Of a DNA stretch of 64,000 nucleotides, positions 2 to 62,373 are shown piece after piece. The translations under genes were made by a program, and so were the position numbers. Positions within the stretch are counted from its first letter, which is position 1; each line of letters starts with the position of its first letter. The stretch lies in NCBI RefSeq assembly GCF_000383675.1, contig NZ_KB911821.1, positions 868,001 to 932,000 on the forward strand. Reading direction: 5' to 3'. Origin of the DNA: Terracoccus sp. 273MFTsu3.1 (GTDB lineage Bacteria; Actinomycetota; Actinomycetes; Actinomycetales; Dermatophilaceae). The notes under the pieces are model-generated. The model was not told the origin of the DNA. It did no database searches and saw only the letters and a list, made by a program, of their open reading frames with translations.

Positions 2-643
2 CACGTCGTCGAGGAGCCGCGCCTGTCCCGGCCCCGGGCGCCGCACCGTGGCTTCGTCATCGGGGTCCACGCCAAGAGCCTGCGCGCGGGCATGGACCCC
101 CTGCCCGTCATCGAGGGCATCGTCGCCACGCTGCCCGAGATGCCCGGCGCCCGGCTGCGCGTCGACGCCCACACCGACGTCATGACGCCGGGCGGCCCTC
201 GGCACGCGACCGACCTCGAGCCCCGGCTCCGGGAGCTCGCAGCGACCGACGGCGTCGACCTGCACGTGCACGACTACTTCAGCGACGACGACCTGTGGGA
301 CTACCTCCAGTCCCTCGACGTGTCGGTGCTGCCCTACCGCTTCGGCACGCACTCGGGGTGGCTCGAGGCGTGTCACGACCTCGGGACGACGGTCGTCGCC
401 CCGGACTGCGGCCACTACGCCGACCAGCGTCCGTGCCTCCTCTACGGCGCGCCGGGATCCCTGGCGGCCGCGGCCCCGACGCTCCGGGACGCCCTCCTGA
501 GCGCGTACCACGAGCGCCCCTCGTGGCGGGCCGAGCCGGAGGAGCGCAGGCGCGAGCGCCATGACGTCTCGCGCGCCCACGAGCAGGTGTATGCCGCCGT
601 GCTGGCCGCGGCTGCGGAGCGGGGTGTCGCATGCGCGTCGTGA
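2..643 (+). CDS. Glycosyltransferase, C-terminal part (5' end outside window)
   Basis: The reading frame is open from base 2, so the gene starts before the window. The visible 213 residues look like the second Rossmann half of a GT-B glycosyltransferase. There is a beta-strand entry FVIGVHAKSLRAGMDPLPVI-like segment, and a late region with DVSVLPYRFGTHSGWLEA followed by a Gly/Pro-rich nucleotide-sugar site. Family 4 is the best guess because the order of elements (VLPY..THSGW..E) matches GT4 donor-site topology. It would transfer a sugar from an NDP-sugar at the cytoplasmic face of the membrane. The stop overlaps the next gene by 13 bases, so the two are translationally linked. Donor and acceptor cannot be told from the sequence. 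Confidence 0.8.
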   Translation, partial: HVVEEPRLSRPRAPHRGFVIGVHAKSLRAGMDPLPVIEGIVATLPEMPGARLRVDAHTDVMTPGGPRHATDLEPRLRELAATDGVDLHVHDYFSDDDLWDYLQSLDVSVLPYRFGTHSGWLEACHDLGTTVVAPDCGHYADQRPCLLYGAPGSLAAAAPTLRDALLSAYHERPSWRAEPEERRRERHDVSRAHEQVYAAVLAAAAERGVACAS

Positions 644-1713
644 TCCTCGCTGCCGCGAGGCACCCCATCGCGGAGCCGTTCGCCGGTGGCCTGGAGTCGC
701 TGACGTGGCACCTCGTGCGGGGGCTGAGGCGACGCGGTGTCGACGTGTCCTTCTTCGCCGGCCCGGGGAGCGACCCGACGCTGGGGGCGACCGCGCTCGA
801 CGTCGAGCCCCTGCGCCTGAGCCACACCGCCCGGAGCGACACGTCGATGGTGCCGGAGGCCTGGCTGCGCGAGCACCACGCGTACCTGCAGGTCATGCTG
901 GCGCTCCAGCGACGTCCGGATGTCGCGGTCGTGCACAACAACAGCCTCCACCACCTGCCCGTCGCGATGGCCGACTCGCTGCCGTCACCCGTGCTCACGA
1001 CCCTGCACACTCCGCCGACCCCGTGGCTCGAGCCCGCGATCGAGATCGGCTCCCGGTCACGAAACCCCATGCGGCACAGCCATTTCGTCGCCGTGAGCGA
1101 GCACACCGCGCGGTCGTGGGCGCATGTCACGCCCGCGCACGTCGTGCACAACGGCGTCGACGTCGACCGGTGGGTCGAAGGACCCGGCGGCGACGACCTC
1201 GTCTGGGTGGGACGGCTCGTGCCGGAGAAGGCGCCGCACCGAGCCATCGCCATGGCGCGCGCGGCAGGCCGACGGCTTCGCCTGGCGGGCCCCGTCGGCG
1301 ACGCGGACTACTTCACCCAGCACGTAGCGGGCGAGCTCGGGGACGACGTCGAGTACGTCGGCCACCTCGGTACCGACGGCCTCGTCGCCCTCGTCGGGGC
1401 GAGCGCCGCCATGCTCGTGACGCCGGAGTGGGACGAGCCGTACGGCCTCGTCGCCGCGGAGTCTCTCGCGTGCGGCACGCCGGTCGTGGCCCTCGACCGT
1501 GGTGGCCTGCGCGAGTTCGTCGTGCCCGGGGTCGGGGTGCTGCTCCCCCGCGACTGCGACGACGCGGCTGCTGCCGACGCCGTGGCCGCAGCCGTCGACC
1601 TCGACCGCGCCGCGTGCCGCGCCCATGCCGTCGTCGCCTGCTCGGTGGACCGCATGGTCGAGAGCTACCTCGGGATCTACGAGTCCCTCAGCGCGATGTC
1701 GGGTGCCGCATGA
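631..1713 (+). CDS. Glycosyltransferase, GT4-like
   Basis: A 360-residue GT-B fold glycosyltransferase. The N-terminus MRVVILAAARHPIAEPFAGG carries the Gly-rich acceptor-domain loop typical of family 4, followed by ESLTWHLVRGLRRRGHDV-like helix. Mid-protein HFVAVSEHTARSW and VHNGVDVDRW are the classic linker motif of GT4 enzymes, and WDEPYGLVAAESLACGTPVV is the EX7E donor-site motif near residues 270-285. It probably adds a hexose to a surface glycan or glycolipid using an NDP-sugar. It starts inside the previous gene and overlaps the next by ATGA, so the four glycosyltransferases form one operon. Substrate is unknown. Confidence 0.9.
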   Translation: MRVVILAAARHPIAEPFAGGLESLTWHLVRGLRRRGVDVSFFAGPGSDPTLGATALDVEPLRLSHTARSDTSMVPEAWLREHHAYLQVMLALQRRPDVAVVHNNSLHHLPVAMADSLPSPVLTTLHTPPTPWLEPAIEIGSRSRNPMRHSHFVAVSEHTARSWAHVTPAHVVHNGVDVDRWVEGPGGDDLVWVGRLVPEKAPHRAIAMARAAGRRLRLAGPVGDADYFTQHVAGELGDDVEYVGHLGTDGLVALVGASAAMLVTPEWDEPYGLVAAESLACGTPVVALDRGGLREFVVPGVGVLLPRDCDDAAAADAVAAAVDLDRAACRAHAVVACSVDRMVESYLGIYESLSAMSGAA

Positions 1714-2828
1714 TCGGCTGGTACGTCCACCACCAGGGGCTCGGCCACCTGACCCGCCTGCAGGCCGTCGCCGAGCACCTCGGGACACCGGTCACGGGCA
1801 TCAGCTCCCTGCCGGCCCCCGACGGATGGGCGTCCGAGTGGCTGCAGCTCGACCGCGACGACCGGATGCCTGCCGACGAGGTCGCCCGCGCCGACCCCAC
1901 GGCGGGTGACGTGCTGCACTGGGTCCCGCGGCACGACGCCGGACTGGCCCGCCGTGCCGCGGCGCTGACCGAGTGGGTCACGCGGACACGGCCCTCGCTC
2001 GTCGTCGTCGACGTGTCGGTGGAGGTCGCGACGCTCGTCCGGCTGTGCGGGGTACCCGTGGTCGTGCTGGCGATGCCCGGAGAGCGCACCGACCGGCCCC
2101 ACGTCCTCGCCTACGATCTGGCCGATGCCCTGCTCGCCCCGTGGCCCGAGGCAGCCCATGCGACCGGCTGGCCCGCGTCGTGGCGCGACAAGCTGTGGGC
2201 GGTCGGGGGGATCTCGCGATTCGACGACCGGGTCCCGGCGCGTCGACGCACGTCCCTCGGCTCGTCCGCGGGCGGCATCGAGGCGTTGGCGGACGGACCC
2301 GAAGCCGGGCCGGAGCCCGAGGAGGCCTCGTCGCGACGGGTCCTCGTCCTCTGGGGCGGCGGCGGTCGGTCGACGTCCGCCGTCGAGGTGGCCGCGGCGC
2401 GGGCCGCGACGCCGGGCTGGGAGTGGGTCGAGCGCGGACCCGACTCGCCGTCGCCCGACCTGTGGGCCGACCTCGAGTCCGCCGACGTCGTCGTCACGCA
2501 CGGCGGCCAGAACGCCGTCGCCGAGGTCGCGGCGGCGCGACGTCCCGCCATCGTCGTGGCCCAGCCGCGGCCCTTCGACGAGCAGGTGGCGACGGCCGCC
2601 GCCGTCGACCGGCTCGGGGCCGCGGTCGGCGTCCCCGCCTGGCCGCTCGCCACGGCGTGGCCCGGGCTGCTCGAGCAGGCTCTCGACCGTGGCGGGGAGG
2701 GCTGGCGCCGGTGGTCCACCGGCAACGGGGCGGCCTCCGCGGCAGCGAGGCTGGACGAGCTCGCCGCCCGCCACGACCGCCTCCACCGCCTCCACCGCAC
2801 CGGCGACGACATCCGCACGGCGTCGTGA
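1710..2828 (+). CDS. Glycosyltransferase, GT1/GT28 (MurG/UGT-like)
   Basis: 372 residues, starting at the ATG of an ATGA overlap with the upstream gene. The N-terminal MIGWYVHHQGLGHLTRL has the G-x-G-H-x-x-R signature of MurG and UGT-type transferases (HGxGHxxR). The C-terminal VVTHGGQNAVAEVAAARRP is the HGG-N-E donor diphosphate-binding site of the same superfamily. The middle carries a long charged, Gly/Glu-rich linker (residues about 180-205) before the second Rossmann domain. Probably a glycosyl transfer step in the same glycan as the neighbours. A GTGA overlap couples it to the next gene. The family is clear but the sugar is not. Confidence 0.85.
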   Translation: MIGWYVHHQGLGHLTRLQAVAEHLGTPVTGISSLPAPDGWASEWLQLDRDDRMPADEVARADPTAGDVLHWVPRHDAGLARRAAALTEWVTRTRPSLVVVDVSVEVATLVRLCGVPVVVLAMPGERTDRPHVLAYDLADALLAPWPEAAHATGWPASWRDKLWAVGGISRFDDRVPARRRTSLGSSAGGIEALADGPEAGPEPEEASSRRVLVLWGGGGRSTSAVEVAAARAATPGWEWVERGPDSPSPDLWADLESADVVVTHGGQNAVAEVAAARRPAIVVAQPRPFDEQVATAAAVDRLGAAVGVPAWPLATAWPGLLEQALDRGGEGWRRWSTGNGAASAAARLDELAARHDRLHRLHRTGDDIRTAS

Positions 2829-3742: not shown

Positions 3743-3745
3743 CCG

Positions 3746-5093: not shown

Positions 5094-8315
<3,222 letters not shown>

Positions 8316-8655
8316 CGGCATACGGGTGCCGGAGGCTGTAACGGATGCACGCCGGCCGCGATGGTGTGGGTGAGGCGGCACCCGATCCCCCGAGCGGGTG
8401 CCGTCTCGCTGCCTGTCCGGAGCCGTCCGTCCTGCGACGTCACCGCCGCCCCTGCCTGGTTGAAGAGCGACGATGCCGCCGGGTGACGAGTACCCAGCGA
8501 GGGCCGCGTCAGTCGCCGCCGTGCGCCGCGCCGTGCCGGACGAAGCGGACAGCCGACCCGCTCGGCACCATCTGTCGGACCTGTCCCCTAGGCTTGAAGG
8601 GCGCCAATCGCGGTCGAGCAAAGGCCGGCGACGGGGTAGCAGTAGGAGTTTTCGC
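8316..8655. other. 340-base intergenic region
   Basis: No convincing gene. A copy of the dispersed word CGGCATAC starts right after the devR stop (8316). TAGGCT at 8589-8594 is a good -10 hexamer for the ANTAR gene, giving a 5' leader of about 55 bases; no clear -35 element is visible. AGGAG at 8644-8648 is the ribosome site. Confidence 0.5.
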
Positions 8656-9143: not shown

Positions 9144-10751
9144 ATGCAGCCGGACGGCGCCGCGCACGGACCGGGAGAGCCGGGAGAGCCGGGAGAGCCG
9201 AGTGGGCCCGGTGAGCCGGGTCGCAGCCAGGCGCGCCGTGAGCCCGGGACCGGCTTGCGCCGCGCACTCGGACTCACCGCCCTCGGCACCGTCCTGCCCG
9301 GCGCCGGACTGACCCAGACCCGCAGCCGATGGGTCGGCTGGGTCATCCTCGGCATCACCCTCGTCGCGGCCGCCGGCGGGGCCTACGCCCTGCTGAGCCA
9401 GGGCGTCACGAGTGCCGCGCTCGCGGTCGTCGCCCGCCCCGAATGGCTCCGCGGCGCCGTCGTCGTCATCGCGGTCTGGGGCCTCGTCTGGTGCGCGTCG
9501 ATCGTCCTGACCGCCGTCCAGGCACGACCGGGCACGCTCGACCGCGGCCGCACCTTCCTGCTCGCCGCCTTCACGACGCTCATGGTGCTCGTCGTGGGCG
9601 GCGGGGCCATCACCGCCGCGAACTACGCCCTCATCACCCAGGACACCGTCGAGGTCGTCTTCTCCGCGCCGCCGTCGCGACCGGGTGTGGGCGCGAAGGT
9701 CGTCGAGGGCGACGACCCGTGGGCCGAGCAGGCCCGCGTCAATCTCCTGCTGCTCGGCTCCGACGCGGGCTCCGACCGAATCGGCACCCGGACGGACTCG
9801 ATGATCGTCGCGAGCATCGACACGCACTCCGGGCGCACGACGCTCATCTCGATGCCCCGCAACCTGCTCAAGGCGCCGCTCGCCCCCGGCAGCCCCCTCC
9901 TCGCCCGCTACCCGTCCGGCCGCTTCGGCTCACCCGAGCGGTCCTGCGCCCAGAACGAGCCCGGCGCGACCGGCCAGTGCATGCTCACCAACCTCTACAG
10001 CGAGGCGGAGGCGTATGCCGTCGACCACCCGGGCGCGTACCCCAAGGGCGTCGTGCCGGGTCGGGAGGAGATCCGCGGCACCGTCCAGCAGATCGTCGGG
10101 CTGACCATCGACCACGTCGTCGTCATCGACCTCAAGGGCTTCTCGCTGCTCATCGACGCCATGGGCGGCCTCGACATCAATGTCAAGAACGCCGGCACGG
10201 GTGGCCCGCTGCCGATCGGTGGGCGCGTGACGGCCGACCAGCGCATCGTCGGCGTCAAGGCGTGGTTCACACCCGGGCGCCAGCACCTCGACGGGTGGCA
10301 CTCGCTCTGGTACGCCCGCTCGCGTGCCGCCGACAGCGACACGTTCCGGCAGGCCCGGCAGCGGTGCGTGGTCCAGGCGATCGTCGAGCAGGTGAACCCG
10401 GCCGAGATGGTGGGCCGGTACCCCCAGCTGGCCCGCATCGCGCGCGACAACATCTACACCGACATCCCCGCCCGGAGCCTGCCGGCGTTCGTCGACCTCG
10501 TCGAGCGGGTGCAGAAGGCCAGGGTCAACAGCGTGACGCTGACCCTCGACGACGGCATCAAGCCGTGGGACCCCGACTACGCGAGGATCCGCGCCCTCGT
10601 CAGGAAGGGGATCGCCGCGCCGAAGCCGGCGAAGACGCCGACGCCGACGTCCACGACGGCCGGCTCGGCGGGCGGCACCCCCACGGTGACCCGGACGCCG
10701 CGCACCCCCGCGACGCCGAGCCCGACGACGACGCCGTACGCGCAGTGCTGA
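9144..10751 (+). CDS. LytR-CpsA-Psr (LCP) family cell-wall ligase
   Basis: 535 residues. LCP enzymes move undecaprenyl-linked glycopolymers onto peptidoglycan or arabinogalactan outside the membrane. The N-terminal 35 residues are a Gly-Glu-Pro repeat, followed by three hydrophobic segments (about 60-85, 100-125, 135-160), more than the single anchor of most family members. The LCP domain (about 200-440) has LLLLGSDAGSDRIGTRTDSM and TLISMPRNLL, supplying the conserved Asp and Arg residues for the pyrophosphate-lipid. The C-terminus is a Thr/Pro-rich wall-spanning tail. GGAAGGAG lies just upstream of the chosen ATG. It may attach the glycan made by the 1-3742 operon, by inference. Confidence 0.93.
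   Translation: MQPDGAAHGPGEPGEPGEPSGPGEPGRSQARREPGTGLRRALGLTALGTVLPGAGLTQTRSRWVGWVILGITLVAAAGGAYALLSQGVTSAALAVVARPEWLRGAVVVIAVWGLVWCASIVLTAVQARPGTLDRGRTFLLAAFTTLMVLVVGGGAITAANYALITQDTVEVVFSAPPSRPGVGAKVVEGDDPWAEQARVNLLLLGSDAGSDRIGTRTDSMIVASIDTHSGRTTLISMPRNLLKAPLAPGSPLLARYPSGRFGSPERSCAQNEPGATGQCMLTNLYSEAEAYAVDHPGAYPKGVVPGREEIRGTVQQIVGLTIDHVVVIDLKGFSLLIDAMGGLDINVKNAGTGGPLPIGGRVTADQRIVGVKAWFTPGRQHLDGWHSLWYARSRAADSDTFRQARQRCVVQAIVEQVNPAEMVGRYPQLARIARDNIYTDIPARSLPAFVDLVERVQKARVNSVTLTLDDGIKPWDPDYARIRALVRKGIAAPKPAKTPTPTSTTAGSAGGTPTVTRTPRTPATPSPTTTPYAQC
9168..9221 (+). repeat. Collagen-like Gly-Glu-Pro codon repeat in the LCP gene
   Basis: Tandem GGAGAGCCG triplet-of-codon units encode a G-E-P/G-P repeat before the first membrane segment, thus on the cytoplasmic side. 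The units are near-identical at DNA level, consistent with slippage expansion. Confidence 0.75.
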
Positions 10752-11432: not shown

Positions 11433-12866
11433 TCAGGCCAGGTCGAGCACCTGCGGAGGCTCGCTCCAGATCCGGCGGGAGACCTGCTCGGGATAGCTCG
11501 TGACCTCCGGCTCGGCGTCGAACAGTCGAGTCGCTCCGGTGTCGTACGAGGGCCACCCGGGGTCGCCCGTCGTGGCGAAGGCCGTCCACGCGCTCCGCAT
11601 CTGCTCCGACACCGCCTCGGCCTCGGCCGTGGGGTCGCCGATGAGCAGCGCCGGCTGACCGACCGTGAGGGTGCCGAACACGAGCGGCACGTCGAGGCCG
11701 TGACAGGCACCGAGGACCCCGCCCATGCCGGGCGCCGGCCAGGTCAGCTCGTAGAGGTGGACCCGGCCGCCTGCGGCCAGCTGGGCCTCCGCGAGGTGCA
11801 GGGACGGCATACGGAAGAGCCAGTCCGAGCGCACCACGTCGTAGAGCTCCTCGGGGTCGGGGAAGCTCTCGCAGTAGCGCGCCGGGTCGGGGCCGAAGGT
11901 CTCGGCCGCCTCGGCGGCCTGTGCCTCCGTGATCGCGCCCAGCTGCCCGCTCAGCGCCGTGAGCAGCCGCTGCTCGTGGCGGGTGTGGCCGACCATCAGC
12001 GCGACGCGCCCGGTCAGCCCGAGCCACGGCGTCGTCGGGAGCACGTCACCGTCGACGACCGGTGCCAGGGGGACGTGGGCGTGCGCCGCGCGCCCCCAGC
12101 GGTCCGCGTGGAGCTCCATCGTCGCCGCCACGGCGTCGGCGGCGGCGGGCAGCCTCCGGCGGTCGGCAGCAGGCAGCTCAGCGGGGTCGAGACCCAGCTC
12201 GGCCGCGCAGGCCCGCGTGATGTCGGCGGCCAACCGGGGGGTGAAGAACGTGCCGGGCAGGCTCTGCGCGACGGCCCGCTGGAAGAGCCCTGCGGCGCGG
12301 GGCATGGCGAGCAGCGCGGCCACCGAACCGCCACCCGCGGACTGGCCGAAGACCGTGACCCGCTCGGGGTCGCCCCCGAAGGCGCCGATGTTGTCGCGCA
12401 CCCACTCGAGCGCATCGACCTGGTCCAGCAGGCCGCGGTTCGCCGGCGTGCCGTCGACCCAGCCGAAACCCTCCAGGCCGACCCGGTAGTTGAACGTCAC
12501 GACGACGACCCCGCCCTGCGCGAGCGTGCTCCCGTCGTACTCGGGCAGGCCGGACGTGCCGAAGAGGTAGGCGCCTCCCTGGATCCAGACCATGACGGGT
12601 GACCGGCTCCCGAGCCCCGGCGACCAGACGTTGACGGTCAGCCAGTCGTCGCCCTCGTCGGTCAGGGCGTCCATCCCGAAGGCCGCCGACTGTGGCGGCG
12701 GCGGACCGAACGCCCGGGCCGGGCGGGTGCCCGCCCAGGGCTGCACCGGTTCGGGGGCGGCGAAGGGCGCGGGCGGCGCCGCGTACGGGATGCCGCGGAA
12801 GACGGCGAGGCCGCCCTCGGTGGCGCCGCGGACGACGCCACCCGTGACCTCGACGTCGATGTCCAC
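11433..12866 (-). CDS. Type B carboxylesterase
   Basis: 477 residues, alpha/beta-hydrolase fold. VFRGIPYAAPPAP is the family entry motif. DWLTVNVWSPG and VMVWIQGGAYLFGTSG supply the oxyanion-hole Gly-Gly. VTVFGQSAGGGSVAALL contains the nucleophile Ser (G-Q-S-A-G), and the catalytic His is likely in GACHGLDVPLVFGT. It hydrolyses ester bonds of small substrates; no signal peptide is seen, so it is cytoplasmic. The length is normal for bacterial type B enzymes. It stands alone, with only 50 bases to the glutaminase upstream, which might be co-transcribed. Substrate unknown. Confidence 0.93.
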   Translation of the reverse strand: MDIDVEVTGGVVRGATEGGLAVFRGIPYAAPPAPFAAPEPVQPWAGTRPARAFGPPPPQSAAFGMDALTDEGDDWLTVNVWSPGLGSRSPVMVWIQGGAYLFGTSGLPEYDGSTLAQGGVVVVTFNYRVGLEGFGWVDGTPANRGLLDQVDALEWVRDNIGAFGGDPERVTVFGQSAGGGSVAALLAMPRAAGLFQRAVAQSLPGTFFTPRLAADITRACAAELGLDPAELPAADRRRLPAAADAVAATMELHADRWGRAAHAHVPLAPVVDGDVLPTTPWLGLTGRVALMVGHTRHEQRLLTALSGQLGAITEAQAAEAAETFGPDPARYCESFPDPEELYDVVRSDWLFRMPSLHLAEAQLAAGGRVHLYELTWPAPGMGGVLGACHGLDVPLVFGTLTVGQPALLIGDPTAEAEAVSEQMRSAWTAFATTGDPGWPSYDTGATRLFDAEPEVTSYPEQVSRRIWSEPPQVLDLA

Positions 12867-12917: not shown

Positions 12918-14027
12918 TCATCCCCCCGGCGGGGCGGTGTGCGGATCGGGTGCGGACGCGAAGACGTTGAGTCCCAGGGCCCGGCTCAGCGAACGCGTGA
13001 TGAGCTGCCCCCGCACGCTGTTGCCGGCCTCGTCGAGCGGCGGCGACCAGGCGGCGAGGCCACCCTTGCCGGGCGCGACCGTCACGACGGCGCCGCTGAC
13101 GCCGCTCTTGCCCGGGAGCCCGACCTCCCAGAGCCAGTCGCCCGACAGCTCGTAGAGGCCCGCCGTCGCCATGACGGCCAGGACGCGAGCGCACGTCGCG
13201 TCCGAGACGACCCGCTCCCCCGTCATCGGGTTGACGCCACCGTCGGCGAGCGTCGCGGCCATCACGGCGAGGTCGTGCACGTCGACGGACAGCGAGCACT
13301 GCCGGGTGTAGAGGTCGGTCGCGTCGTCGGGGTCGCAGTGCACCCGCCCGTAGCTGTGCAGCAGGTGGGCGATCCCGCGGTTGCGAAGGTTGGTGGCCGA
13401 CTCCCCGGCGTAGACGTCCTCGTCGACGACCAGGCGCCGGCCGGCGAAGGCCGACAGCCCGTCGACGACGACACCCCAGGCCGCCTCGACCCCGGTGTCG
13501 TGGTGGCCTAGCCCGGCCACCTCGGGCACGAGGCTCGTCGCGGCGATCGCTCCGGCGTTGACCATCGGGTTCATCGTGCGGTGGTCGTGCACCTCGACGG
13601 CCATGACCGAGTTGAAGGGAAGCCCGGTCGCGTTGGCGCCCAACAGCTCTCGTGACCGGTCGGCCCCGAGCGCCTCGACGACGAGTGCCAGCACGAACGG
13701 CTTCGAGACGCTCTGGACCGAGAAGCGCACCCCGACGTCGCCGACCTCGAAGGCGCGCCCCGCGACCGAGACGACCGACGCTGCGCACCAGGCGGGGTCG
13801 GCCCGGGCGAGCTGGGGGATGTACGTCGCCACCGTCCCGTCCTCGACGTGGCGGTGCCGGTCGTATGCCGCGTGCAGGAGCTCCCCGACCGTGGTGTCGT
13901 CGGGCAGGTGACCCGTCGACACCCGCGTGACCGGGCCGTCGGGCGGCACCGACCGGGGATCGCCGACGGAGCCGGGGTCGCTGTCGCTGCCCCTGTCATC
14001 CCCGTCCCCGTCGGCCCGCACGTCCAC
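12918..14027 (-). CDS. glsA: Glutaminase (serine-dependent)
   Basis: 369 residues. The beta-lactamase-like glutaminase domain runs from about residue 40 to 350. FSVQSVSKPFVLAL holds the S-x-x-K catalytic pair, HRTMNPMVNAGAIA carries the substrate-binding Asn and Gly-Ala-Ile, and VGLPGKSGVSGAVV is the late conserved Gly loop. It converts glutamine to glutamate and ammonia in the cytoplasm. The first 35 residues are Asp/Gly-rich and unusual, so the true start may be a GTG further in. It is followed by the AbgT/aminopeptidase pair on the same strand, which also deals with glutamate-bearing compounds. Confidence 0.93.
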   Translation of the reverse strand: MDVRADGDGDDRGSDSDPGSVGDPRSVPPDGPVTRVSTGHLPDDTTVGELLHAAYDRHRHVEDGTVATYIPQLARADPAWCAASVVSVAGRAFEVGDVGVRFSVQSVSKPFVLALVVEALGADRSRELLGANATGLPFNSVMAVEVHDHRTMNPMVNAGAIAATSLVPEVAGLGHHDTGVEAAWGVVVDGLSAFAGRRLVVDEDVYAGESATNLRNRGIAHLLHSYGRVHCDPDDATDLYTRQCSLSVDVHDLAVMAATLADGGVNPMTGERVVSDATCARVLAVMATAGLYELSGDWLWEVGLPGKSGVSGAVVTVAPGKGGLAAWSPPLDEAGNSVRGQLITRSLSRALGLNVFASAPDPHTAPPGG

Positions 14028-17378: not shown

Positions 17379-19184
17379 ATGAGCCCCGCGACGACGAGCC
17401 TGGTGGTCCTCGCGGTGACCGTCGTCCTCTTCATCTGGAACCGGCTGCCCGTGGGCGGGGTGGCCGTCATCACCTGCCTCGCGCTGTACGCGACGGGACT
17501 CGTCGACGCGGACACGGCCCTGTCGGGCTTCGGCGACCCCGTCGTCGTCTTCATCGCTTCCCTCTTCGTCGTCAGCGAGGCCATCGACTCGGCCGGCGTG
17601 ACGACGTGGGCCGGCCAGCGCCTCATCGACGTCGTCGGTGACGGACCGGTGCGCGTCATGGTCGCCGTGCTCGGCCTGTGTGCGGTCCTGACCGCCGTCA
17701 TCACCCTCAACGGCTCGGTGGCCGCCCTCCTGCCCATGGTTCTCGTCCTCGCCACCCGGATCCGGCGGTCGCCCTCGCTCATGCTCATGCCGATGGCCTT
17801 CGCCGGGAGCGCCGGATCCCTCCTCGCGCTGACGGGTAGCCCGGTCAACGTCATCGTCTCCAACGCTGCCGTCGACGCCGGTGTCGAGCCCTTCGGCTTC
17901 TTCGACTTCGCCGTCGTCGGCCTCCCCCTCGTCATCGGCACGGTGACCCTCGGGGTCCTGCTCGGGCCACGGGTGCTGCCCCACCGGTCCTCCTCCCAGC
18001 CGGTCCGCGACCTCGGTCGGCACGCGAGCCGGCTCGCCGCCTACTACGAGCTCCACGACGGCTTCTACCGCCTCCGGGTGCGCCCGGGGTCGCCCGTCGT
18101 CGGGGTCCCCGCGTCGAGACTCGACCTCACGGCATACCCGGGGGTGACGCTGATCGGCGTGCAGAGTGCCGGCGGTCACGCCGTGACGGGGGCGACCCCG
18201 GTCGGTGACGACGACGTCGTCGTCGTCAGCGGGGCGAGCGAGGCCGTGAGCCGCCTCGTGCCCGAGCTGCGCCTCGCCGTCGCGATGCGACCGATCACGG
18301 TCGAGTCGGCCGGCATCATGAACCGCGAGGTCGGCGTGGCGGAGGTCGTCGTGCCGCCACGCTCTCCCCTCGTCGGTGAGACGTCCTTCCCCGGCCAGGT
18401 GCGCGGCAGCGACCTCGTCGTGCTCGGGATCCGCCGGCTCGGGAAGGACCTGGGTCCGACGCCGCACGAGCTGGCGGCCGGGGACAGTCTCCTGCTCCAC
18501 GGCACGTGGACGTCGATCGAGGAGCTCGTGCACGACCGTGACGTGCTGCTCGTCGACTCCCCGGATCTCGTTCGGCGGCAAGCAGTTCCGCTCGGTCCGC
18601 GGTCGGGTCGGGCGATCGTCGTCCTCCTCGTCATGGTCCTCCTGCTCGCGCTCGGAGTCGTGCCCCCGGCGATCGCAGGCCTCGCTGCCGCGACCGCGAT
18701 GGTGCTGACGCGGGTCATCAGCGTCAACCAGGCCTACCGAGCCGTCTCGTGGCAGACCGTCGTGCTCATCGGCGGCCTCATCCCGCTGTCGACCGCGATC
18801 GAGACGAGCGGCGCCGCCGACCTCGTGGCCAGGGGGCTCATCGACGTCGTCGGCGAGGGACGGCCCTACGTGCTGCTCGTCGCGCTCTTCGCCCTCACCG
18901 CGGTCCTCGGCCAGGTCGTCAGCAACACCGCCACGGTCCTGATCATCGTGCCGATCGCGGTGGCCGCGGCGCAGGAGACCGGCGTCTCGGTGCTGCCGGT
19001 GCTCATGCTCGTCGCGGTCGCCGGAGCCGCGTCGCTGCTCACGCCCATCGCCACGCCGGGCAACATGATGATCATGGGGCCGGGGGGCTACCGCTTCGGC
19101 GACTACTGGCGCCTCGGGCTGCCGGTCCTGCTCCTCTGGCTCGTCGTCGCCGTCGTCGTCATCCCTCTCGTGTGGCGCTTCTGA
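17379..19184 (+). CDS. SLC13-type permease with two RCK_C (TrkA-C) domains
   Basis: 601 residues. Two membrane halves (about 1-200 and 410-601), each ending in a re-entrant loop motif: LTGSPVNVIVSNAA in the first and GQVVSNTATVLIIVP plus TPIATPGNMM in the second, as in DASS/SLC13 carriers. Between them lie two RCK_C ligand-binding domains (about 215-300 and 310-390), typical of the bacterial subgroup annotated as sodium/sulfate or dicarboxylate symporters. Substrate is not predictable, with sulfate, phosphate or dicarboxylate all possible. It ends 26 bases into the convergent YbhN-like gene, so the two transcripts overlap. Confidence 0.88.
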   Translation: MSPATTSLVVLAVTVVLFIWNRLPVGGVAVITCLALYATGLVDADTALSGFGDPVVVFIASLFVVSEAIDSAGVTTWAGQRLIDVVGDGPVRVMVAVLGLCAVLTAVITLNGSVAALLPMVLVLATRIRRSPSLMLMPMAFAGSAGSLLALTGSPVNVIVSNAAVDAGVEPFGFFDFAVVGLPLVIGTVTLGVLLGPRVLPHRSSSQPVRDLGRHASRLAAYYELHDGFYRLRVRPGSPVVGVPASRLDLTAYPGVTLIGVQSAGGHAVTGATPVGDDDVVVVSGASEAVSRLVPELRLAVAMRPITVESAGIMNREVGVAEVVVPPRSPLVGETSFPGQVRGSDLVVLGIRRLGKDLGPTPHELAAGDSLLLHGTWTSIEELVHDRDVLLVDSPDLVRRQAVPLGPRSGRAIVVLLVMVLLLALGVVPPAIAGLAAATAMVLTRVISVNQAYRAVSWQTVVLIGGLIPLSTAIETSGAADLVARGLIDVVGEGRPYVLLVALFALTAVLGQVVSNTATVLIIVPIAVAAAQETGVSVLPVLMLVAVAGAASLLTPIATPGNMMIMGPGGYRFGDYWRLGLPVLLLWLVVAVVVIPLVWRF

Positions 19185-31230: not shown

Positions 31231-31568
31231 CCTCGCCGGCGGACCCCGGGCTGCAGGCGGAACGCACCTCGCTCGCCTGGCGCCGCACGGCGCTCTCGGT
31301 GGCCGTCGGCTCGCTCGTCGCGATGCGGGTGCTCCCCCCGCAGCTCGGACCCCTCGGGTATGCCGTCGCCCTCCTCGGCCTGCTGTGGAGCGTCGACATC
31401 GCACTGACGGCACGACGTCGCTACCGCGACGGCAGCCGCCTCGTGCGCCTGCGTGACGACCCGGACGGTCGCGCGGTGGCCGCGGTGCCGATCGCGAGGA
31501 CGGCCGCGATCGCCGGCGTCCTCGCGATCGGAGCCCTCGCACTCGTCATCGTCATCGCGAGCCGCTGA
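31227..31568 (+). CDS. DUF202 membrane protein, second of pair (YidG-like)
   Basis: 113 residues from a GTG overlapping the previous stop. LQAERTSLAWRRTALSVAVG is a DUF202 core with a shorter N-terminus; three hydrophobic stretches follow. The pair with the preceding gene suggests a heteromeric membrane complex. Downstream lies a strong inverted repeat built on the dispersed word. Confidence 0.9.
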   Translation: MTSPADPGLQAERTSLAWRRTALSVAVGSLVAMRVLPPQLGPLGYAVALLGLLWSVDIALTARRRYRDGSRLVRLRDDPDGRAVAAVPIARTAAIAGVLAIGALALVIVIASR

Positions 31569-31569
31569 C

Positions 31570-31613
31570 GACCTCGTATGCCGTGTCCCCTCCGACACGC
31601 GGCATACGAGGTC
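31570..31613. terminator. Hairpin terminator with paired GTATGCCG words
   Basis: Arms GACCTCGTATGCCG-TGTC (31570-31587) and its complement with a two-base bulge (31594-31613), loop of six bases. It lies between convergent DUF202 and MMPL genes and would serve both. No T-run follows. The word GTATGCCG occurs in each arm. Confidence 0.75.
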
Positions 31614-33912: not shown

Positions 33913-34040
33913 ATGACAAGCCGATCGGCCGGCTCCGCTAGGGTGACGCGCACCACGCCGTGCCCGTCGACGGCCACCACCCGCGGCGCGGTGGTCGACG
34001 GCATACGGCACCCGCGTGGACGACCGACGAGGAGGCGACC

Positions 34041-44699: not shown

Positions 44700-45752
44700 A
44701 TGGTCGAGCACCGTGCCAGGTCGCACCGCGTCCGTGACATCGCCGAGCAGTCCGGCCTGTCCGAGGCGACCATCGACCGGGTGCTCCACGGGCGGCCCGG
44801 CGCGAGCGCGCGGGCGGTGCGGGCCGTCGAGCAGGCCGTGCTCGACCTCGACCGCCAGCAGACCCAGCTGCGGCTCGCGGCCAGGACCCTGCTGCTCGAC
44901 GTCGTCATCCAGGCTCCCTCGCGCTTCAGCTCGGCCGTCCGGTCCGCCCTCGAGGACGAGCTGCCGGCCTTGCGCCCGGCTGCGGTGCGGGCCCGATTCC
45001 ACCTGCGCGAGAACGCCGACGTCGACGCCGCCGTCGAGCTGCTCGACGGCCTCGGGCGGCGCGGACGCATCTGCCACGGCGTCGTGCTCAAGGCGCCCGA
45101 CGACCCGGCCGTGGCCGCCGCCGTGGGCCGCCTGGCGGGGCGCGGCATCCCCGTCGTCACGCTCGTCACCGACGTGCGCGACAGCGCGCGGGTGGCGTAC
45201 GTCGGGCTCGACAACGCCGCGGCCGGGGCCACCGCCGCCTACCTCGTGTCGCAGGTGCTCGGCGACCGGCCCGGAGACGTGCTGCTGAGCCTCAGCCGGT
45301 CGTTCTTCTTCGGCGAGCGCGAGCGGGCCGAGGCCTTCACCGCCGCCCTCGGCCGCCTGGCGCCGGGCCGGCGCGTGCACACGATCACGGACAGCGACGG
45401 CCTCGACGCGACGACGGCCTCCCTCGTCGGCGAGGTGCTCAGGTCCGAGCCGGACGTCCGCGCGGTCTACTCCGTCGGCGGCGGCAACCGCGCCCTCGTC
45501 GGCGCCTTCGACGCGGCGGGGCGGCCACCGCGCGTCTTCATCGGCCACGACCTCGACGAGGACAACCTCGACCTGCTGCGTTCGGGAGCCCTGACCGCCG
45601 TGCTCCACCACGACCTCCACGCCGACATGCGGGCCGGCGTGCGCCAGGTCATGCGCGCCCACCGTCTCGTGCCCGGGGCGCCCACCTCGGTCGCGGCGAA
45701 CGTCGAGGTCGTGACGGCATACAACATCCCCCCGCGCATCCACGCGCACTGA
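44700..45752 (+). CDS. LacI-family transcription regulator
   Basis: 350 residues. HRVRDIAEQSGLSEATIDRV then LHGRPGAS is the LacI HTH and hinge; the rest is a two-lobed periplasmic-binding-type domain, with GLDNAAAGATAAYLVSQVL and FIGHDLDEDNLDLLRSGALT as the sugar-contact loops. It probably binds a sugar or cyclitol and controls both the divergent PhyH gene and the downstream dehydrogenase operon. Start at ATG 44700 follows CGGAG. The gene ends in CACTGAGGTCC, again carrying the CTGAGG half-site. Confidence 0.92.
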   Translation: MVEHRARSHRVRDIAEQSGLSEATIDRVLHGRPGASARAVRAVEQAVLDLDRQQTQLRLAARTLLLDVVIQAPSRFSSAVRSALEDELPALRPAAVRARFHLRENADVDAAVELLDGLGRRGRICHGVVLKAPDDPAVAAAVGRLAGRGIPVVTLVTDVRDSARVAYVGLDNAAAGATAAYLVSQVLGDRPGDVLLSLSRSFFFGERERAEAFTAALGRLAPGRRVHTITDSDGLDATTASLVGEVLRSEPDVRAVYSVGGGNRALVGAFDAAGRPPRVFIGHDLDEDNLDLLRSGALTAVLHHDLHADMRAGVRQVMRAHRLVPGAPTSVAANVEVVTAYNIPPRIHAH

Positions 45753-47964: not shown

Positions 47965-48842
47965 CGACCACCACGGCAGCCGACGAGCTCATGGCCACGT
48001 GCTGGAGCAGCGCCGGCGACGCAGCCTCCGACCGGCCCGACCTGCGCAGCCCGCTGAGCCTGCGCGAGCGCGTCGAGGCCGCGTCGGCGGCCGGCTTCCG
48101 AGGCTTCGGCCTGCTCTCCGACGACCTCCCGGCGGCGGTGGCGGCATACGGGCTCAAGGGGATCCGTGACCTGCTCGCCGACAACGGGATCACCCACCTG
48201 GAGCTCGAGGGCATCCCGTGGTGGTGGGACGACGGCGCCCACGAGGCGGAGTCCTCGCGGGTGCGCAGCGCCCTCCTCGGTGCGGCTGAGGCCCTCGGCG
48301 CCCGACACCTGAAGGTCACCCCCGACGGCGATGCCGCACCGTGGGACCGCGGCCTCTGGGCGGCGCGGTTCGCCGAGCTCGCGGCCCAGGCCGACGGCGT
48401 GGGGGCCCGGCTCGGCATCGAGTTCTTCCCGTGGTCGAACATCGCCTCGCTCCACGACGGCCTCCGGCTCGTCACGGAGGCCGGCCACCCGGCCGGTGGC
48501 GTCATCATCGACACGTGGCACGTCGCGCGCGCCGGCACTCCTGCTGGGGATCTCGCGGCGGTGCCGCTCGAGCGCATCGTCGGGGTCGAGCTGGACGACG
48601 CGGACGAGCAGGTGGTCGGCACGCTCTTCGAGGACACCGTCCACCGCCGGCGGTACTGCGGCGAGGGCGACTTCGACCTCACGGGCATGGTCACCGCCCT
48701 CCGGAGCGCGGGCTGGACCGGACCGTGGGGGGTCGAGATCCTCTCGGACGAGCACCGGGCCCTGCCGGTCGGCGAGGCCCTCCGGCGCGCTGCGACCAGC
48801 GCCCGTAGCGTGCTCGGGGCTGCGTCCTCGCCGACGACGTGA
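47961..48842 (+). CDS. Sugar phosphate isomerase/epimerase-like TIM barrel (AP endonuclease 2 family)
   Basis: 293 residues. Barrel strands are visible as GFRGFGLLSDDL, ITHLELEGIPWWW, RHLKVTPDG, RLGIEFFPWS, VIIDTWHVARAG, VGVELDDADE and WGVEILSDEHR, with metal ligands Glu, Asp-x-W-H and Glu in the expected places for xylose-isomerase-like enzymes (inosose dehydratase, epimerases). The set with two dehydrogenases and a PhyH oxygenase fits a pathway for an unusual sugar or cyclitol. A strong terminator follows at 48849. Confidence 0.9.
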   Translation: MTTTTAADELMATCWSSAGDAASDRPDLRSPLSLRERVEAASAAGFRGFGLLSDDLPAAVAAYGLKGIRDLLADNGITHLELEGIPWWWDDGAHEAESSRVRSALLGAAEALGARHLKVTPDGDAAPWDRGLWAARFAELAAQADGVGARLGIEFFPWSNIASLHDGLRLVTEAGHPAGGVIIDTWHVARAGTPAGDLAAVPLERIVGVELDDADEQVVGTLFEDTVHRRRYCGEGDFDLTGMVTALRSAGWTGPWGVEILSDEHRALPVGEALRRAATSARSVLGAASSPTT

Positions 48843-58600: not shown

Positions 58601-60216
58601 GTGCGGCTTCCCTCCTTGGTGGGCCGGGCGTCCTCCGAGCGATACCGCGCCAGCAGCTCCAGCTCTCCCGCATGCTTCGGGAACAGGACGAACACGATGA
58701 CGGCACCCACGAGGATCGCGATGATGCCTGCCGTGTAGGCCCAGTCGGCGCCCGACAGGAACGACTCCCGGGCCGCGGCGATGATCTGCGCCGAGTACTG
58801 CGGGTACTGCCCGGCCACGGCGTCGGCACCGGCGAACGACTTCGTGAGCTCGTTCTGCACGCTGCTCGTGATCTCGTCGCCGTTCGGGGCGGCGGCGATG
58901 CTGGCACTGACGGCGGCGGCATACCCCGCCGTGAGCAGTGCCCCGAAGATGGACTGCATGATGGCACCGCCGAGGTCACGTTGCAGGTCGGCGGTGCCCG
59001 AGGCCATTCCGGCCCGCTGCACCGGGACGGCGCCGGTGAGCGAGTGCGACGCCGGCGTGCCCGCGAACCCGACGCCGATCCCGATGAAGGCGTAGGCGAG
59101 TGCGATCTGCCAGTAGGAGCTGCCTTCGGACCAGAAGACGAGCATCCAGGCGAACGCGACCAACAGGAACACGTAGCCGGCGAGCAGCGTGAACCGGGAT
59201 CCGCGTCGCTCGATCAGCGTCGCCGAGCGCGGCGCGACGAGGACCATCAGGACCACTGCTGGCAGGAAGGCCGCACCGGCCTCGAAGGTGGAGTAGCCGA
59301 GGACGTTCTGGAGGTACTGCTGGCTGACGAAGGCGGACGCCATCAGCGAGCCGAAGACGATGATCCCCGCGCACGCCGCCACCCAGAAGACGCGGCGCCC
59401 AGCGATGTGGAGGTCGTAGAGCGGCACGGAGGCCCGACGCTGTCGCGCGACGAAGGCGACCAGCGCGGCGGTCGCGAGGACCGCGAGGCCGAGTGCCAGC
59501 GTGCCCTTGCCGGGGACGGGAGCGAAGTTGATCGCGAGGATCAGCGCGCCGACGAGGACGACGGACAGTATGCCGCCGAGGTTGTCGACCGGATCGGTGG
59601 TCTCGTTCACGTGGGCCGGCACGAGCATCACGGCCATGACGAGCGCGACCGCGGCCAACGGAAGCGTGACGAGGAAGACCGACCCCCACCAGAAGCGCTC
59701 GAGCAGGAAGCCGGCGACCAGCGGTCCCACGGCGGCGATGCCACCACCGATCGCAGACCACAAGGCGATCGATCGGGTCCGCGCGGGGCCCGCCCACAGG
59801 GCGGCGATCAGCGCGAGGGTGGTCGGATAGGCCATGCCTGCCGACACGCCGCCGAGCACCCGCGCCAGGAACAGCACGACGTCTGAAGCGGCGTAGGCCG
59901 CCAACAGGCAGGCCGGCACGGACAGCGCCATACCGAGGATGAGCAGCAGCTTGCGCCCGTAGCGGTCGCCGATCGCTCCCAGGTAGAGCACCGATCCGGC
60001 GAGCCCGAGGGAGTACCCGACCGCGATGAGATCGAGCGTCGTCTGGGAGGAGTTGAAGGCGCGGCCGATCGACGGCAGCGCGACGTTGGCGACCGACAGG
60101 TTGAGGTTCGCGACCGCTGCGACCGTGATCAGGGCGAGCAGGACGAGCCCCGCGCGCTTCGGCTGGGTCGATGCCTCCGCCCCGGTCGCGCCGACGGGCG
60201 GCGGGCCGTCAGCCAT
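58597..60216 (-). CDS. MFS drug-efflux transporter, DHA2 (14-span) family
   Basis: 539 residues with about 14 membrane segments. Motif A variant LGAIGDRYGRKLLLILGMAL (G-D-R-x-G-R-K), motif C-like GPLVAGFLLERFWW and NLNLSVANVALPSIGRAF, the DHA2 start with the conserved N-x-A-L-P. These carriers export lipophilic drugs or antiseptics. First gene of the MFS-SulP-DUF2252-channel unit. It carries two copies of the dispersed word (58917, 59568). Confidence 0.92.
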   Translation of the reverse strand: MADGPPPVGATGAEASTQPKRAGLVLLALITVAAVANLNLSVANVALPSIGRAFNSSQTTLDLIAVGYSLGLAGSVLYLGAIGDRYGRKLLLILGMALSVPACLLAAYAASDVVLFLARVLGGVSAGMAYPTTLALIAALWAGPARTRSIALWSAIGGGIAAVGPLVAGFLLERFWWGSVFLVTLPLAAVALVMAVMLVPAHVNETTDPVDNLGGILSVVLVGALILAINFAPVPGKGTLALGLAVLATAALVAFVARQRRASVPLYDLHIAGRRVFWVAACAGIIVFGSLMASAFVSQQYLQNVLGYSTFEAGAAFLPAVVLMVLVAPRSATLIERRGSRFTLLAGYVFLLVAFAWMLVFWSEGSSYWQIALAYAFIGIGVGFAGTPASHSLTGAVPVQRAGMASGTADLQRDLGGAIMQSIFGALLTAGYAAAVSASIAAAPNGDEITSSVQNELTKSFAGADAVAGQYPQYSAQIIAAARESFLSGADWAYTAGIIAILVGAVIVFVLFPKHAGELELLARYRSEDARPTKEGSRT

Positions 60217-60665
60217 GATGTTCGGCCCTCCTGACGGCCGACATCTCGGGCATCTGCGCTCGCACTCGTGTCATCGCTGACCCCTCCCGCTCGAGAGCAC
60301 CGGGCACCATTCTCGGCCTCGTCGGGGCGGGCGCGCATCACCCCGATGGGGTGGGGCTACAGCTCCAGCGGTTGCCCGTCCAGCCGGGTCACCCCCGCAC
60401 GCATCTCAGCACCGCGGGCAGCCTGGCCCTCGACAGTGACGGCCGCACACGTACCGCCGCCGGCCGGCCACGAGCAGGCTTGTCCCTATGAGGGATTGGC
60501 GCGGGGTGGGCTTCGCCACGTCGGGCCATGGTGATGCGCTGGTCTCGCAGTGGTCCCTGGTTGAGGGGCAAGCGATGCCAGGGCTCCTGCAGCGCAAGGC
60601 CGCACATCCCGTTCACTCCGCCGTGATCTGCTGACGACCGACATCTTCCGGCGCATGATGGGCCC
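60217..60665. other. 449-base intergenic region
   Basis: Divergent promoter region between the MFS gene and a membrane-protein gene. A small inverted repeat CACCCC-GAT-GGGGTG is at 60339-60353. No gene is supported. A 48-codon frame at 60488 lacks a ribosome site. Confidence 0.4.
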
Positions 60666-61388
60666 ATGCCCAACGAGCCGTCGACGGATCCCCGGCCAGG
60701 GCCACCTGGCGACACCGGTTCCGGACAGATGGGTGTCGTGGCGGCGCCGGAGACGTACGTGTGGCCCCTGGTCGCCCTCATCGTGGTCATCCTTCCGCAG
60801 GTTCTGGTGCCGGAGAGGATGCGAGAAGGGCCCCCGATCGCCGTGCCCGCGACCGAGGCGGCGGTGGTCCTGATACTCCTCGCCGTGGCTGCGAAACCGG
60901 GCCCGGTCCCACGGGCTGCTCGTCCGCTGGTCCTCTCGCTCGTGGCCGTCCTCATCGTGGCGAACACCGGCGCCGCCGCCAGGCTCGTGGCGCTCGTCCT
61001 GCGAAGCACGCCCGAGGGTGAGACGCCTCCCACCGTGACACAGCTACTCGTCACTGCCGTCACCCTGCTCGCCACGAACATCGTGACCTTCGGGCTGCTC
61101 TACTGGCAGATCGACGGCGGCGGCCCCGACGTGCGCCAGGTCGGTGCCGCGCGCTATCCCGACTTCCAGTTCCCCCAAACCGGCGTCGAGGGACTCGCGC
61201 CACCCGACTGGCAGCCACGGTTCCCAGACCACCTCTACCTGGCGTTCACCAACGTGGTCGCGTTCAGCCCCACCGACACGCTCCCGTTGACCCATCGCGT
61301 CAAAGGACTGATGGCGATCCAGTCGATGATCTCCCTGGCCGTTCTCGTCGTGGTGCTGTCCCGGGTGATCAACATTCTCCCGCCTTAG
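60666..61388 (+). CDS. Membrane protein, unknown function (DUF1345-like)
   Basis: 240 residues with about five hydrophobic segments. The conserved second half HLYLAFTNVVAFSPTDTLPL then HRVKGLMAIQSMISLAVLVV resembles the pore-like C-terminus of DUF1345/ion-channel-type proteins, with TFGLLYWQIDGGGPD before it. The soluble segment (about 150-200) is between membrane segments 4 and 5. Function unknown. Codons are somewhat less GC-rich than neighbours (an ATA codon occurs in VVLILLAV), a weak sign of a different history. Confidence 0.7.
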   Translation: MPNEPSTDPRPGPPGDTGSGQMGVVAAPETYVWPLVALIVVILPQVLVPERMREGPPIAVPATEAAVVLILLAVAAKPGPVPRAARPLVLSLVAVLIVANTGAAARLVALVLRSTPEGETPPTVTQLLVTAVTLLATNIVTFGLLYWQIDGGGPDVRQVGAARYPDFQFPQTGVEGLAPPDWQPRFPDHLYLAFTNVVAFSPTDTLPLTHRVKGLMAIQSMISLAVLVVVLSRVINILPP

Positions 61389-61527
61389 GCACGGCGCTCA
61401 TCCGGGTCTTGCTTGAGCGTGTCGACGACCCTCCGAGAGGCCGTCGACATCATCGCCGCCCTCGCGGCACGCCTGCCCGTGAAGTGCCGCGACGGCCGCC
61501 GACGGTCGGACACGCCCCTAGGACGAC

Positions 61528-61571
61528 GGAAGGGCCCCTGACCGGCGTTTCCGCTGGTCAGAGGCCCTTCC
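61528..61571. terminator. Hairpin terminator, bidirectional
   Basis: Arms of 19 bases, 61528-61546 and 61553-61571, pair at all but two positions (one G-T), six-base loop. It lies between the membrane-protein gene and the tRNA, both ending here. Confidence 0.85.
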
Positions 61572-61581
61572 GAGCACTGGG

Positions 61582-61662
61582 TGGCAGGTGAAGGATTCGA
61601 ACCTTCGTAGCTCTCGCGACGGATTTACAGTCCGTTTCCATTGGCCGCTCGGACAACCTGCC
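61582..61662 (-). tRNA. tRNA-Tyr: tRNA-Tyr (anticodon GTA)
   Basis: 81 bases on the minus strand. Acceptor stem GGCAGGT/ACCTGCC, anticodon loop CTGTAAA within an ACGGA/TCCGT stem (anticodon GUA), class II long variable arm and GGTTCGAATCC T-loop. Discriminator is A; CCA is not encoded. This reads the TAC/TAT codons. A terminator hairpin follows. Confidence 0.97.
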
Positions 61663-61798
61663 TTGGTGCGTCTGGAAGGATAGCAAGAGATCGGGCGCGG
61701 TCCGAAATCGGGGCTGCGGCGACCACTTCGTCGTGTCCGCACCGCCTCCGCGCACCCGCCCGACAGACCAGACAACAGCATCCGGAAGGACCCCACCG

Positions 61799-62293
61799 AT
61801 GGCCGACTCCTCGTTCGACATCGTCAGCAAGTTCGACAAGCAGGAGATCGCGAACGCGGTCAACAGCGCCAGCAAGGAGATCGCGACGCGCTACGACTTC
61901 AAGAACGTCGGCGCCTCCGTCGACCTCGCCGGCGAGGTCATCAAGATGAAGGCGAACACCGAGGAGCGTTGCCTCGCCGTGCTCGACGTCGTGCAGACGC
62001 ACCTCGTCAAGCGCAAGGTCAGCCTCAAGCACCTCGACGTCCCCGAGGCCGGACCGCGCCTCTCGGGCAAGGAGTACCACCTCGACGCGCCCCTCAAGGA
62101 GGGCATCTCCCAGGAGAACGCGAAGAAGATCAACAAGCTGATCCGCGACGAGTGGCCCAAGGGCGTCAAGAGCCAGATCCAGGGCGACGAGCTGCGCGTC
62201 TCGAGCAAGTCCCGCGACGACCTCCAGGCCGTCCAGCGGATGCTTCGCGAGGCCGACCTCGACGTCGCGCTCACCTTCACGAACCAGCGCTGA
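61799..62293 (+). CDS. yajQ: YajQ-family nucleotide-binding protein
   Basis: 164 residues. MADSSFDIVSKFDKQEIANA is the family N-terminus; two ferredoxin-like halves are visible, with KEYHLDAPLKEGISQENAKK and IRDEWPKGVKSQIQGDELRV the conserved central motifs. YajQ relatives bind RNA or c-di-GMP; role here unknown. GGAAGGA precedes the ATG. Two hairpins follow the stop. Confidence 0.96.
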   Translation: MADSSFDIVSKFDKQEIANAVNSASKEIATRYDFKNVGASVDLAGEVIKMKANTEERCLAVLDVVQTHLVKRKVSLKHLDVPEAGPRLSGKEYHLDAPLKEGISQENAKKINKLIRDEWPKGVKSQIQGDELRVSSKSRDDLQAVQRMLREADLDVALTFTNQR

Positions 62294-62298
62294 CCCCT

Positions 62299-62325
62299 CG
62301 GTTCGCCTGTGTGACAGGCGAGCCG
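62299..62325. terminator. yajQ terminator hairpin
   Basis: CGGTTCGCCTGT (62299-62310), loop GTG, ACAGGCGAGCCG (62314-62325): 12-base stem with one wobble, six bases after the yajQ stop. Confidence 0.75.
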
Positions 62326-62337
62326 ACCACGACAGAC

Positions 62338-62373
62338 CACGTATGCCGCCCACCCCGGTGGGCGGCATACGTG
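62338..62373. terminator. Hairpin with paired GTATGCCG words
   Basis: Perfect 17-base arms, CACGTATGCCGCCCACC (62338-62354) and its complement (62357-62373), two-base loop. It separates yajQ and the convergent Nudix gene. Each arm contains GTATGCCG, as at 31570-31613. Confidence 0.8.

Follow-up and report, generated by a model that had tools for sequence, protein, structure and literature searches.

The stretch analyzed here is a 64,000-nucleotide window of the genome of Terracoccus sp. 273MFTsu3.1 (contig NZ_KB911821.1, positions 868,001 to 932,000), and its subject is a short dispersed word, the octamer GTATGCCG, which occurs in it 24 times. Read directly from its sequence, the word is non-palindromic. 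Twelve copies lie on the plus strand and 12 on the minus strand, a split given in a preliminary description of this DNA and confirmed by recount. As that description also stated, GTATGCC is followed by G in 24 of 24 copies, at the positions first listed. A count over the printed contexts puts a pyrimidine at the ninth base of 23 copies, the sole exception being the copy at 19735, which is followed by G.

Gene boundaries come from a simple gene caller of our own and are approximate. By these calls, 17 of the 24 copies are in genes and seven are intergenic. The coding copies read the word as TAT-GCC at 589-596 (+), 6546-6553 (+), 10013-10020 (+), 22513-22520 (-), 31358-31365 (+), and 58917-58924 (-); as GCA-TAC at 6608-6615 (-), 13863-13870 (+), 18130-18137 (-), 45715-45722 (-), and 48142-48149 (-); as CGT-ATG at 11805-11812 (-) and 40628-40635 (-); as GGC-ATA at 29636-29643 (+), 35327-35334 (+), and 59568-59575 (+); and as CAT-ACC at 44369-44376 (+). 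The intergenic copies are found at 8316-8323 (-), immediately past the end of a called gene, at 19735-19742 (+), at 33999-34006 (-), and, as the arms of two inverted pairs, at 31576-31583 (+) with 31600-31607 (-) and at 62341-62348 (+) with 62363-62370 (-). The codon frames assigned earlier agree at 17 of 18 sites, while the remaining site, 19735, is called intergenic instead.

The two inverted pairs form two-word hairpins between convergent called genes. The first (31574-31609) is terminator-like, with an RNA fold of -19.9 kcal/mol, and lies between genes at 31227-31568 (+) and 31621-33828 (-). The second (62339-62372) has a 15-pair stem and an RNA fold of -29.6 kcal/mol, and lies between genes at 61799-62293 (+) and 62378-63160 (-). 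In all, nine close inverted +/- pairs (less than 45 bp) were found compared to 1.34 expected when words are scattered at random at their observed densities with strands also drawn at random, and no more than six arose in any of 2000 such simulations. Each of the nine folds into a hairpin, at -18.5 to -36.2 kcal/mol; six are in tandem gaps, three in convergent gaps, and none in divergent gaps. Paired uptake words stand at gene ends and in terminators in Neisseria and Pasteurellaceae, according to an excerpt of PMC1852404, and paired GTATGCCG copies may similarly be reused as transcription terminators.

The number of copies far exceeds chance. Markov models of order 1, 2, and 3 predict 0.78, 0.80, and 1.09 copies on both strands of the window, and the Poisson probability of 24 copies given 1.09 expected is 4e-24. 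Because the models give 0.78-1.09, the earlier expectation of about two copies was too generous, although the excess it was meant to illustrate stands. A genome-wide excess, set beforehand as the test that could refute the observation, also holds. The whole genome (18 contigs, 4.94 Mb) contains 2244 copies (1133 plus, 1111 minus) compared to 257 of the reversed word (116 plus, 141 minus), which is a rough control rather than a model, with ratios up to about 3 occurring even in word-poor genomes. In 434 kb of the chromosome, there are 191 copies compared to 9.9 expected at order 3. These sum to 91 plus and 100 minus, which bears out the earlier remark that the word has no strand polarity. Spacing across the 434 kb averages 2195 bp with a coefficient of variation of 0.87, and the largest gap in a 320-kb block, 10.3 kb, is a ribosomal-protein operon as judged by its protein sequences.

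The word is also sharply bounded. In the same 434 kb, each one-base change at positions 5-8 gives a variant with 0-4 copies. Variants changed at positions 1-4 range from 0 to 86 copies, and most lie close to expectation or under it; C at position 1 (14 compared to 3.8) and G at position 2 (86 compared to 43) stand out most clearly, with expectations of order 2. Outside the core, C is preferred at position 0, T or C at position 9, and C at position 10, giving an extended form cGTATGCCGyc. A repetitive extragenic palindromic (REP) element or other interspersed repeat was considered and rejected, as no long unit with shared flanks was found and the flanks are otherwise unrelated, holding this weak motif and a codon-period bias alone.

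Copies are denser between genes than within them, at 1.415 per kb compared to 0.317 per kb (69 and 122 copies in the 434 kb), a 4.5-fold difference. By gap type, the density is 1.99 per kb in convergent, 1.54 in tandem, and 0.92 in divergent gaps. It was correctly noted before that the copies occur in different reading frames, but their use is uneven, since over the 434 kb 98 of the 118 coding copies whose frame was set are TAT-GCC or GCA-TAC. TAT accounts for 142 of 2449 tyrosine codons overall, yet for 65 of 93 in the context G-TAY-GCC-G. GCA accounts for 737 of 16337 alanine codons overall, yet for 33 of 78 in the context CG-GCN-TAC. These figures strongly support the view, already put forward in the preliminary description, that protein need does not explain the word.

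GTATGCCG is actively kept by evolution. The genome of the window was aligned to seven other Terrabacter genomes, over unequal lengths of 3 to 151 kb. In the four larger comparisons, 59 of 67, 22 of 30, 12 of 20, and 25 of 35 words are kept, compared to fractions of 0.674, 0.392, 0.279, and 0.394 for the average octamer (binomial P from 9e-5 to 3e-3); the smaller comparisons gave 5 of 7 (0.579), 3 of 5 (0.314), and 0 of 0. The average octamer was taken without regard to the composition of the word, and codons therefore provide the better control. TAT codons are kept at 41 of 45 sites in words and 20 of 78 elsewhere, and GCA codons at 25 of 30 in words and 207 of 683 elsewhere; the pairwise comparisons share one reference, which makes their sums non-independent, and not every individual codon comparison reaches significance (TAT in genome G005, P = 0.21). 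Where a word is not kept, the site usually differs by one or two bases, which suggests that point mutation is the main route by which sites are gained and lost.

The window's genome is itself a Terrabacter. Its nearest named relatives, judged by the TadA protein, are Terrabacter strains at 98-99% identity, and all nine genomes of the genus are rich in the word, with 1423-2358 copies, the lowest value coming from a genome that is 74% complete. The wider family, f1 of the genome set, is one which we take to be the GTDB Dermatophilaceae. In the NCBI taxonomy, Terrabacter and Janibacter are placed in Intrasporangiaceae, Ornithinimicrobium in Ornithinimicrobiaceae, and Flexivirga in Dermacoccaceae. 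The comparison with sister genera proposed in the preliminary description gives a divided answer, as 22 of 36 family genomes are rich (939 to 4724 copies) and 14 are poor (11 to 293). At the top density, 4724 copies in a genome of 4.2 Mb, the word occurs about once every 0.9 kb. None of 22 genomes from other families of the order is rich, the maximum being 167 copies in a genome where the control has 184. In a further set of 43 genomes with named loci, several of which are identical to genomes already counted under another handle, 27 reach 1102 copies or more, another 5 contain 149-404, and the remaining 11 contain 18-60.

The identity of the word is set lineage by lineage. A search for over-represented octamers in 20-80 kb samples of each genome revealed close variants of GTATGCCG in several poor genomes and some rich ones. 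Three of these were counted genome-wide. GGATGCCG, seen in genome G034 and in Humibacillus sp. DSM 29435 (G024/G063), has 3949 and 3816 copies in two genomes compared to 453-1027 in ten others. GAATGCCG, seen in a Phycicoccus metagenome-assembled genome (G020), has 3135 copies in one genome compared to 18-235 in eleven. CGTAGACC, two bases from GTATGCCG, has 1183 copies in Arsenicicoccus piscis compared to 191-373 in twelve others, two other Arsenicicoccus among them having 234 and 253. On the samples alone, GTACGCCG was seen in G031, CGTACGCC, which is probably the GTACGCCG variant shifted by one base, in G032, GTATGACG alongside GTATGCCG in Flexivirga meconopsidis (G035), and GTATGCGG in Nostocoides sp. 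F2B08 (G028), with nine copies in 20 kb.

In one group the word has been replaced. The unrelated nine-base word CGAAGGGGG has 1311-1854 copies, balanced between the strands, in five genomes (four Janibacter and one Marihabitans; L192, L195, L200, L208, and L231) compared to 11-71 in 17 others, and in these same five genomes GTATGCCG is at background, with 22-41 copies. At five loci of 17.7-21.2 kb, CGAAGGGGG is sharply bounded (64 copies compared to 0-18 for its one-base variants), and its density is 1.0 per kb between genes compared to 0.6 in genes. Its pairs closer than 60 bp comprise five +/- (three of them at what seems to be one homologous place), three -/+, and one -/-. On a tree of TadA from 55 named loci, word states require 12 changes; this tree was made by a quick method, 18 of its 52 inner branches have less than 80% support, and some locus states rest on 11-21 kb. 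The Humibacillus genome with GGATGCCG falls inside the Terrabacter group, among genomes that carry GTATGCCG, and CGAAGGGGG is confined to one clade that also contains the word-free Kribbia. On the same tree, Janibacter sp. HTCC2649 (L175), which has 2982 copies of GTATGCCG, groups with Knoellia, unlike other Janibacter, and its genus name therefore looks wrong.

Several other frequent words were set apart from these variants. GTGTACCA in Nostocoides sp. F2B08 (L204) was rejected as a variant, as it occurs in twelve near-identical, undispersed stretches with shared flanks, which are probably a repetitive gene. CGGATGCC in G055 (L141 and L161), from another family of the order, has 35 copies compared to 3.9 expected in 40 kb; its right edge is not sharp, and it could be either a related word in use beyond the family or a consequence of codon usage. 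In G036 (L122), a genome of 77% GC, GGACGCCG has 43 copies compared to 9.0 expected in 20 kb, and could be a dispersed word or plain codon bias. In G016 (L056, L057, and L150), runs of G8/C8 are in excess, with 44 compared to 5.6 expected in 60 kb.

By analogy with known systems, GTATGCCG probably serves Terrabacter and many related bacteria as a DNA uptake sequence, belonging to an independent system in Actinomycetota, and a sequence-specific reader of the word presumably exists. A broader claim, which we find more likely than not, is that this would be the third independent uptake-sequence system and the first in a Gram-positive phylum, family-wide, with at least six variant words (five differing by one base and one by two), an exchange for CGAAGGGGG in Janibacter and Marihabitans, and a putative competence receptor, perhaps on a Tad pilus. 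In such a system, a putative surface receptor of the competence machinery would bind GTATGCCG on extracellular double-stranded DNA, and word-bearing DNA would enter more often through ComEA and ComEC, probably aided by a Tad-type pilus, before being recombined into the chromosome. Recombination with word-bearing donors would restore mutated words and spread new ones, a drive by which thousands of copies would accumulate where coding load permits, most densely between genes. Close inverted copies would be reused as transcription terminators, and when the receptor shifts its preference, the word of the genome would drift to a new dialect or be replaced. Uptake would jointly explain the scatter of the word, its lack of polarity, its occurrence in any frame, its tolerance-driven placement, its reuse in hairpins, its variants, its replacement, and its absence from some genomes.

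Core competence genes are present. ComEC (PF03772) is found in 36 of 36 family genomes, and in the window's genome comEA precedes comEC, and a Tad pilus locus, which includes TadE-like and TadE/G-like genes, adjoins prfB. The preliminary description had suggested looking for com genes; they are present, but no examined competence gene follows the word. The 10 ComEA proteins extracted out of 24 look alike in rich and poor genomes. TadA was rejected as a tracker of the word: its T2SSE domain (PF00437) finds several ATPases per genome, with the class of the TadA at the prfB locus set by bit score and frame length, and a match of this class is missing in the word-free G014, G021, and G022, present in the word-free G009, G010, G016, G017, G018, and G027, and only partial in the word-rich G015 and G029. 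Directly downstream of the tad genes in Terrabacter (L142:16575-17033) is a small, secreted-looking protein with a lamin-tail domain, also found beside tad in Humibacillus. Judged by frame length in 22 genomes, this protein is present in 10 of 14 that bear the word and in 1 of the 8 that lack any GTATGCCG-type word; the first count becomes 12 of 14 with two longer frames, one of which is a longer, different protein. Divergent from the tad operon (L142:5393-9673) is a 1426-residue protein with FHA and FtsK/SpoIIIE domains. Among the named tad loci, its relatives are found at 34 of the 44 that bear a word and at 11 of the 25 others.

A number of results weigh against uptake as the explanation. 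Having ComEC does not separate rich from word-free genomes, and most of the word-free genomes examined also have the Tad locus next to prfB, hence the failure of any examined competence gene to track the word. The lamin-tail-domain protein was rejected as a receptor after a survey of 43 more genomes, some of them repeats under another handle, in which it is absent from many rich genomes and present in the word-free G016, G017, and G078. In nearly all of one Tad pilin alignment and part of another, no word-linked feature stood out. Competence genes in word-free genomes could mean that uptake there is unselective or that just the receptor was lost, or uptake could be the wrong reading. No comparable word was found in eight genomes sampled at 31-80 kb. 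A scan of positions 60000-64000 found no classical U-tailed terminator, so any terminator there would lack a T run, and termination by these hairpins is put forward as a prediction. Finally, no uptake or transformation experiment in these genera is among the matches listed in the open PMC literature.

Of the three candidates named in the preliminary description, an uptake-type sequence is favored because of the sharp edges of the word, its maintenance between species, its enrichment between genes and in hairpins, its lineage variants, and its replacement. A nucleoid-protein site fits the variants and hairpins less well. In a wider form, this second candidate holds that the word is the site of a chromosome-organizing or DNA-management protein (a nucleoid protein, an occlusion factor, or a condensin loader), placed once per 2 kb and drifting in specificity between genera. 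The fairly even spread, the lack of strand bias, and conservation between species all suit such a protein, and lineage-specific words could track changes in it. However, it would have no obvious need for hairpin-forming inverted pairs at gene ends or for the absence of a comparable word in several sampled relatives. The density of the word also varies among genera of a single family, with background levels at one end and about one copy every 0.9 kb at the other. We regard it as unlikely. A Chi-like recombination signal, read by a RecBCD/AddAB-type helicase-nuclease, is much less probable still. Chi differs between groups, and an over-represented oligomer that varies between lineages would be expected of it, but Chi acts in one direction and is strand-biased, whereas GTATGCCG is balanced both genome-wide and over the 434 kb, and a signal of this kind gives no reason for +/- hairpins.

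The third earlier candidate, in which a DNA methylase, repair enzyme, or other mutational bias makes or protects the word in the absence of selection, would affect both strands and all frames, as is seen here. It is disfavored by the slow loss of the word relative to other DNA: a bias that creates words should not slow their loss, yet words and their TAT and GCA codons are better kept. Moreover, an exact octamer with near-empty neighbors at positions 5-8 and an exchange for an unrelated nine-base word match no mutational behavior known to us, and we consider this explanation highly improbable. There is next to no chance that the word results from codon, codon-pair, or dipeptide bias or from a repeated gene family. 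The large share of coding copies that read Tyr-Ala or Ala-Tyr would fit such a bias, but codon-pair bias alone, which the preliminary description had named as a refuting outcome, fails on the preference for TAT and GCA inside the word despite their overall rarity. The density is also highest outside genes, and the flanks share little. An uptake sequence remains the reading that we prefer.

The known examples of such sequences are few. In 2025, Neisseriaceae and Pasteurellaceae were called the sole families known to have uptake sequences (PMC12616744, in excerpt), and a 2026 repository of terminators from thousands of genomes, mined for such motifs, places uptake words in those two families in the portion of its text available (PMC13020248). 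Among the matches listed in the open PMC literature, which leaves aside subscription papers and preprints, there is no report of GTATGCCG or of any Actinomycetota uptake sequence. A third case, if true, would supply independent replicates within one family, in which some genomes carry variant words, some are mixed, some are word-free, and some have exchanged the word. It would bear on two old questions: whether such a word simply follows from receptor bias or acts as a species barrier, and how word and receptor change together. In practice, the right word on donor DNA could aid the transformation of soil actinobacteria, and counting the words in a gene could give a clue to its history of transfer.

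Other short words are over-represented chromosome-wide, among them Chi, the FtsK-orienting polar sequences (KOPS), and the highly iterated palindrome HIP1. Chi and KOPS are strand-polar and HIP1 is a palindromic octamer, whereas GTATGCCG is neither polar nor palindromic. To our knowledge, no uptake word has been described for Micrococcus luteus. That species belongs to the same phylum, and its Flp pili take part in DNA uptake (PMC6370729, in excerpt); the ComEA/ComEC and Tad genes are present here too. The closest parallels are the DNA uptake sequence (DUS) of Neisseriaceae and the uptake signal sequence (USS) of Pasteurellaceae, which GTATGCCG resembles on each computable feature tested except for a receptor that tracks the word. 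By excerpts of PMC12616744, the core of DUS is CTG and that of USS is GCGG. GTATGCCG, CGAAGGGGG, and CGTAGACC contain neither on either strand, and GTATGCCG is therefore, by its sequence, neither DUS nor USS proper. The shared pattern, as excerpted from PMC1852404, consists of about 1000 or more copies, alike on both strands, with +/- pairs in terminators. USS in particular has about 930-1520 exact copies per genome (PMC1852404, in excerpt), and two variant types and a receptor that is so far merely predicted (PMC12616744, in excerpt). GTATGCCG differs from it in its unrelated sequence, its Gram-positive host, and its lack of an A/T-rich extended motif as in H. influenzae, and is like it in copy number, hairpin pairs, variant types, and a receptor at best predicted. 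DUS dialects follow the phylogeny of one family, Neisseriaceae (PMC3630211, in excerpt). Compared to DUS, the present word is unrelated in sequence, is known from sequence alone, and belongs to an actinobacterial host in which no ComP-like receptor has been identified and in which Janibacter carries an unrelated substitute. With DUS it shares copies in the thousands, near-equal strands, an exact short core with a weak extension, +/- hairpin pairs, and dialects.

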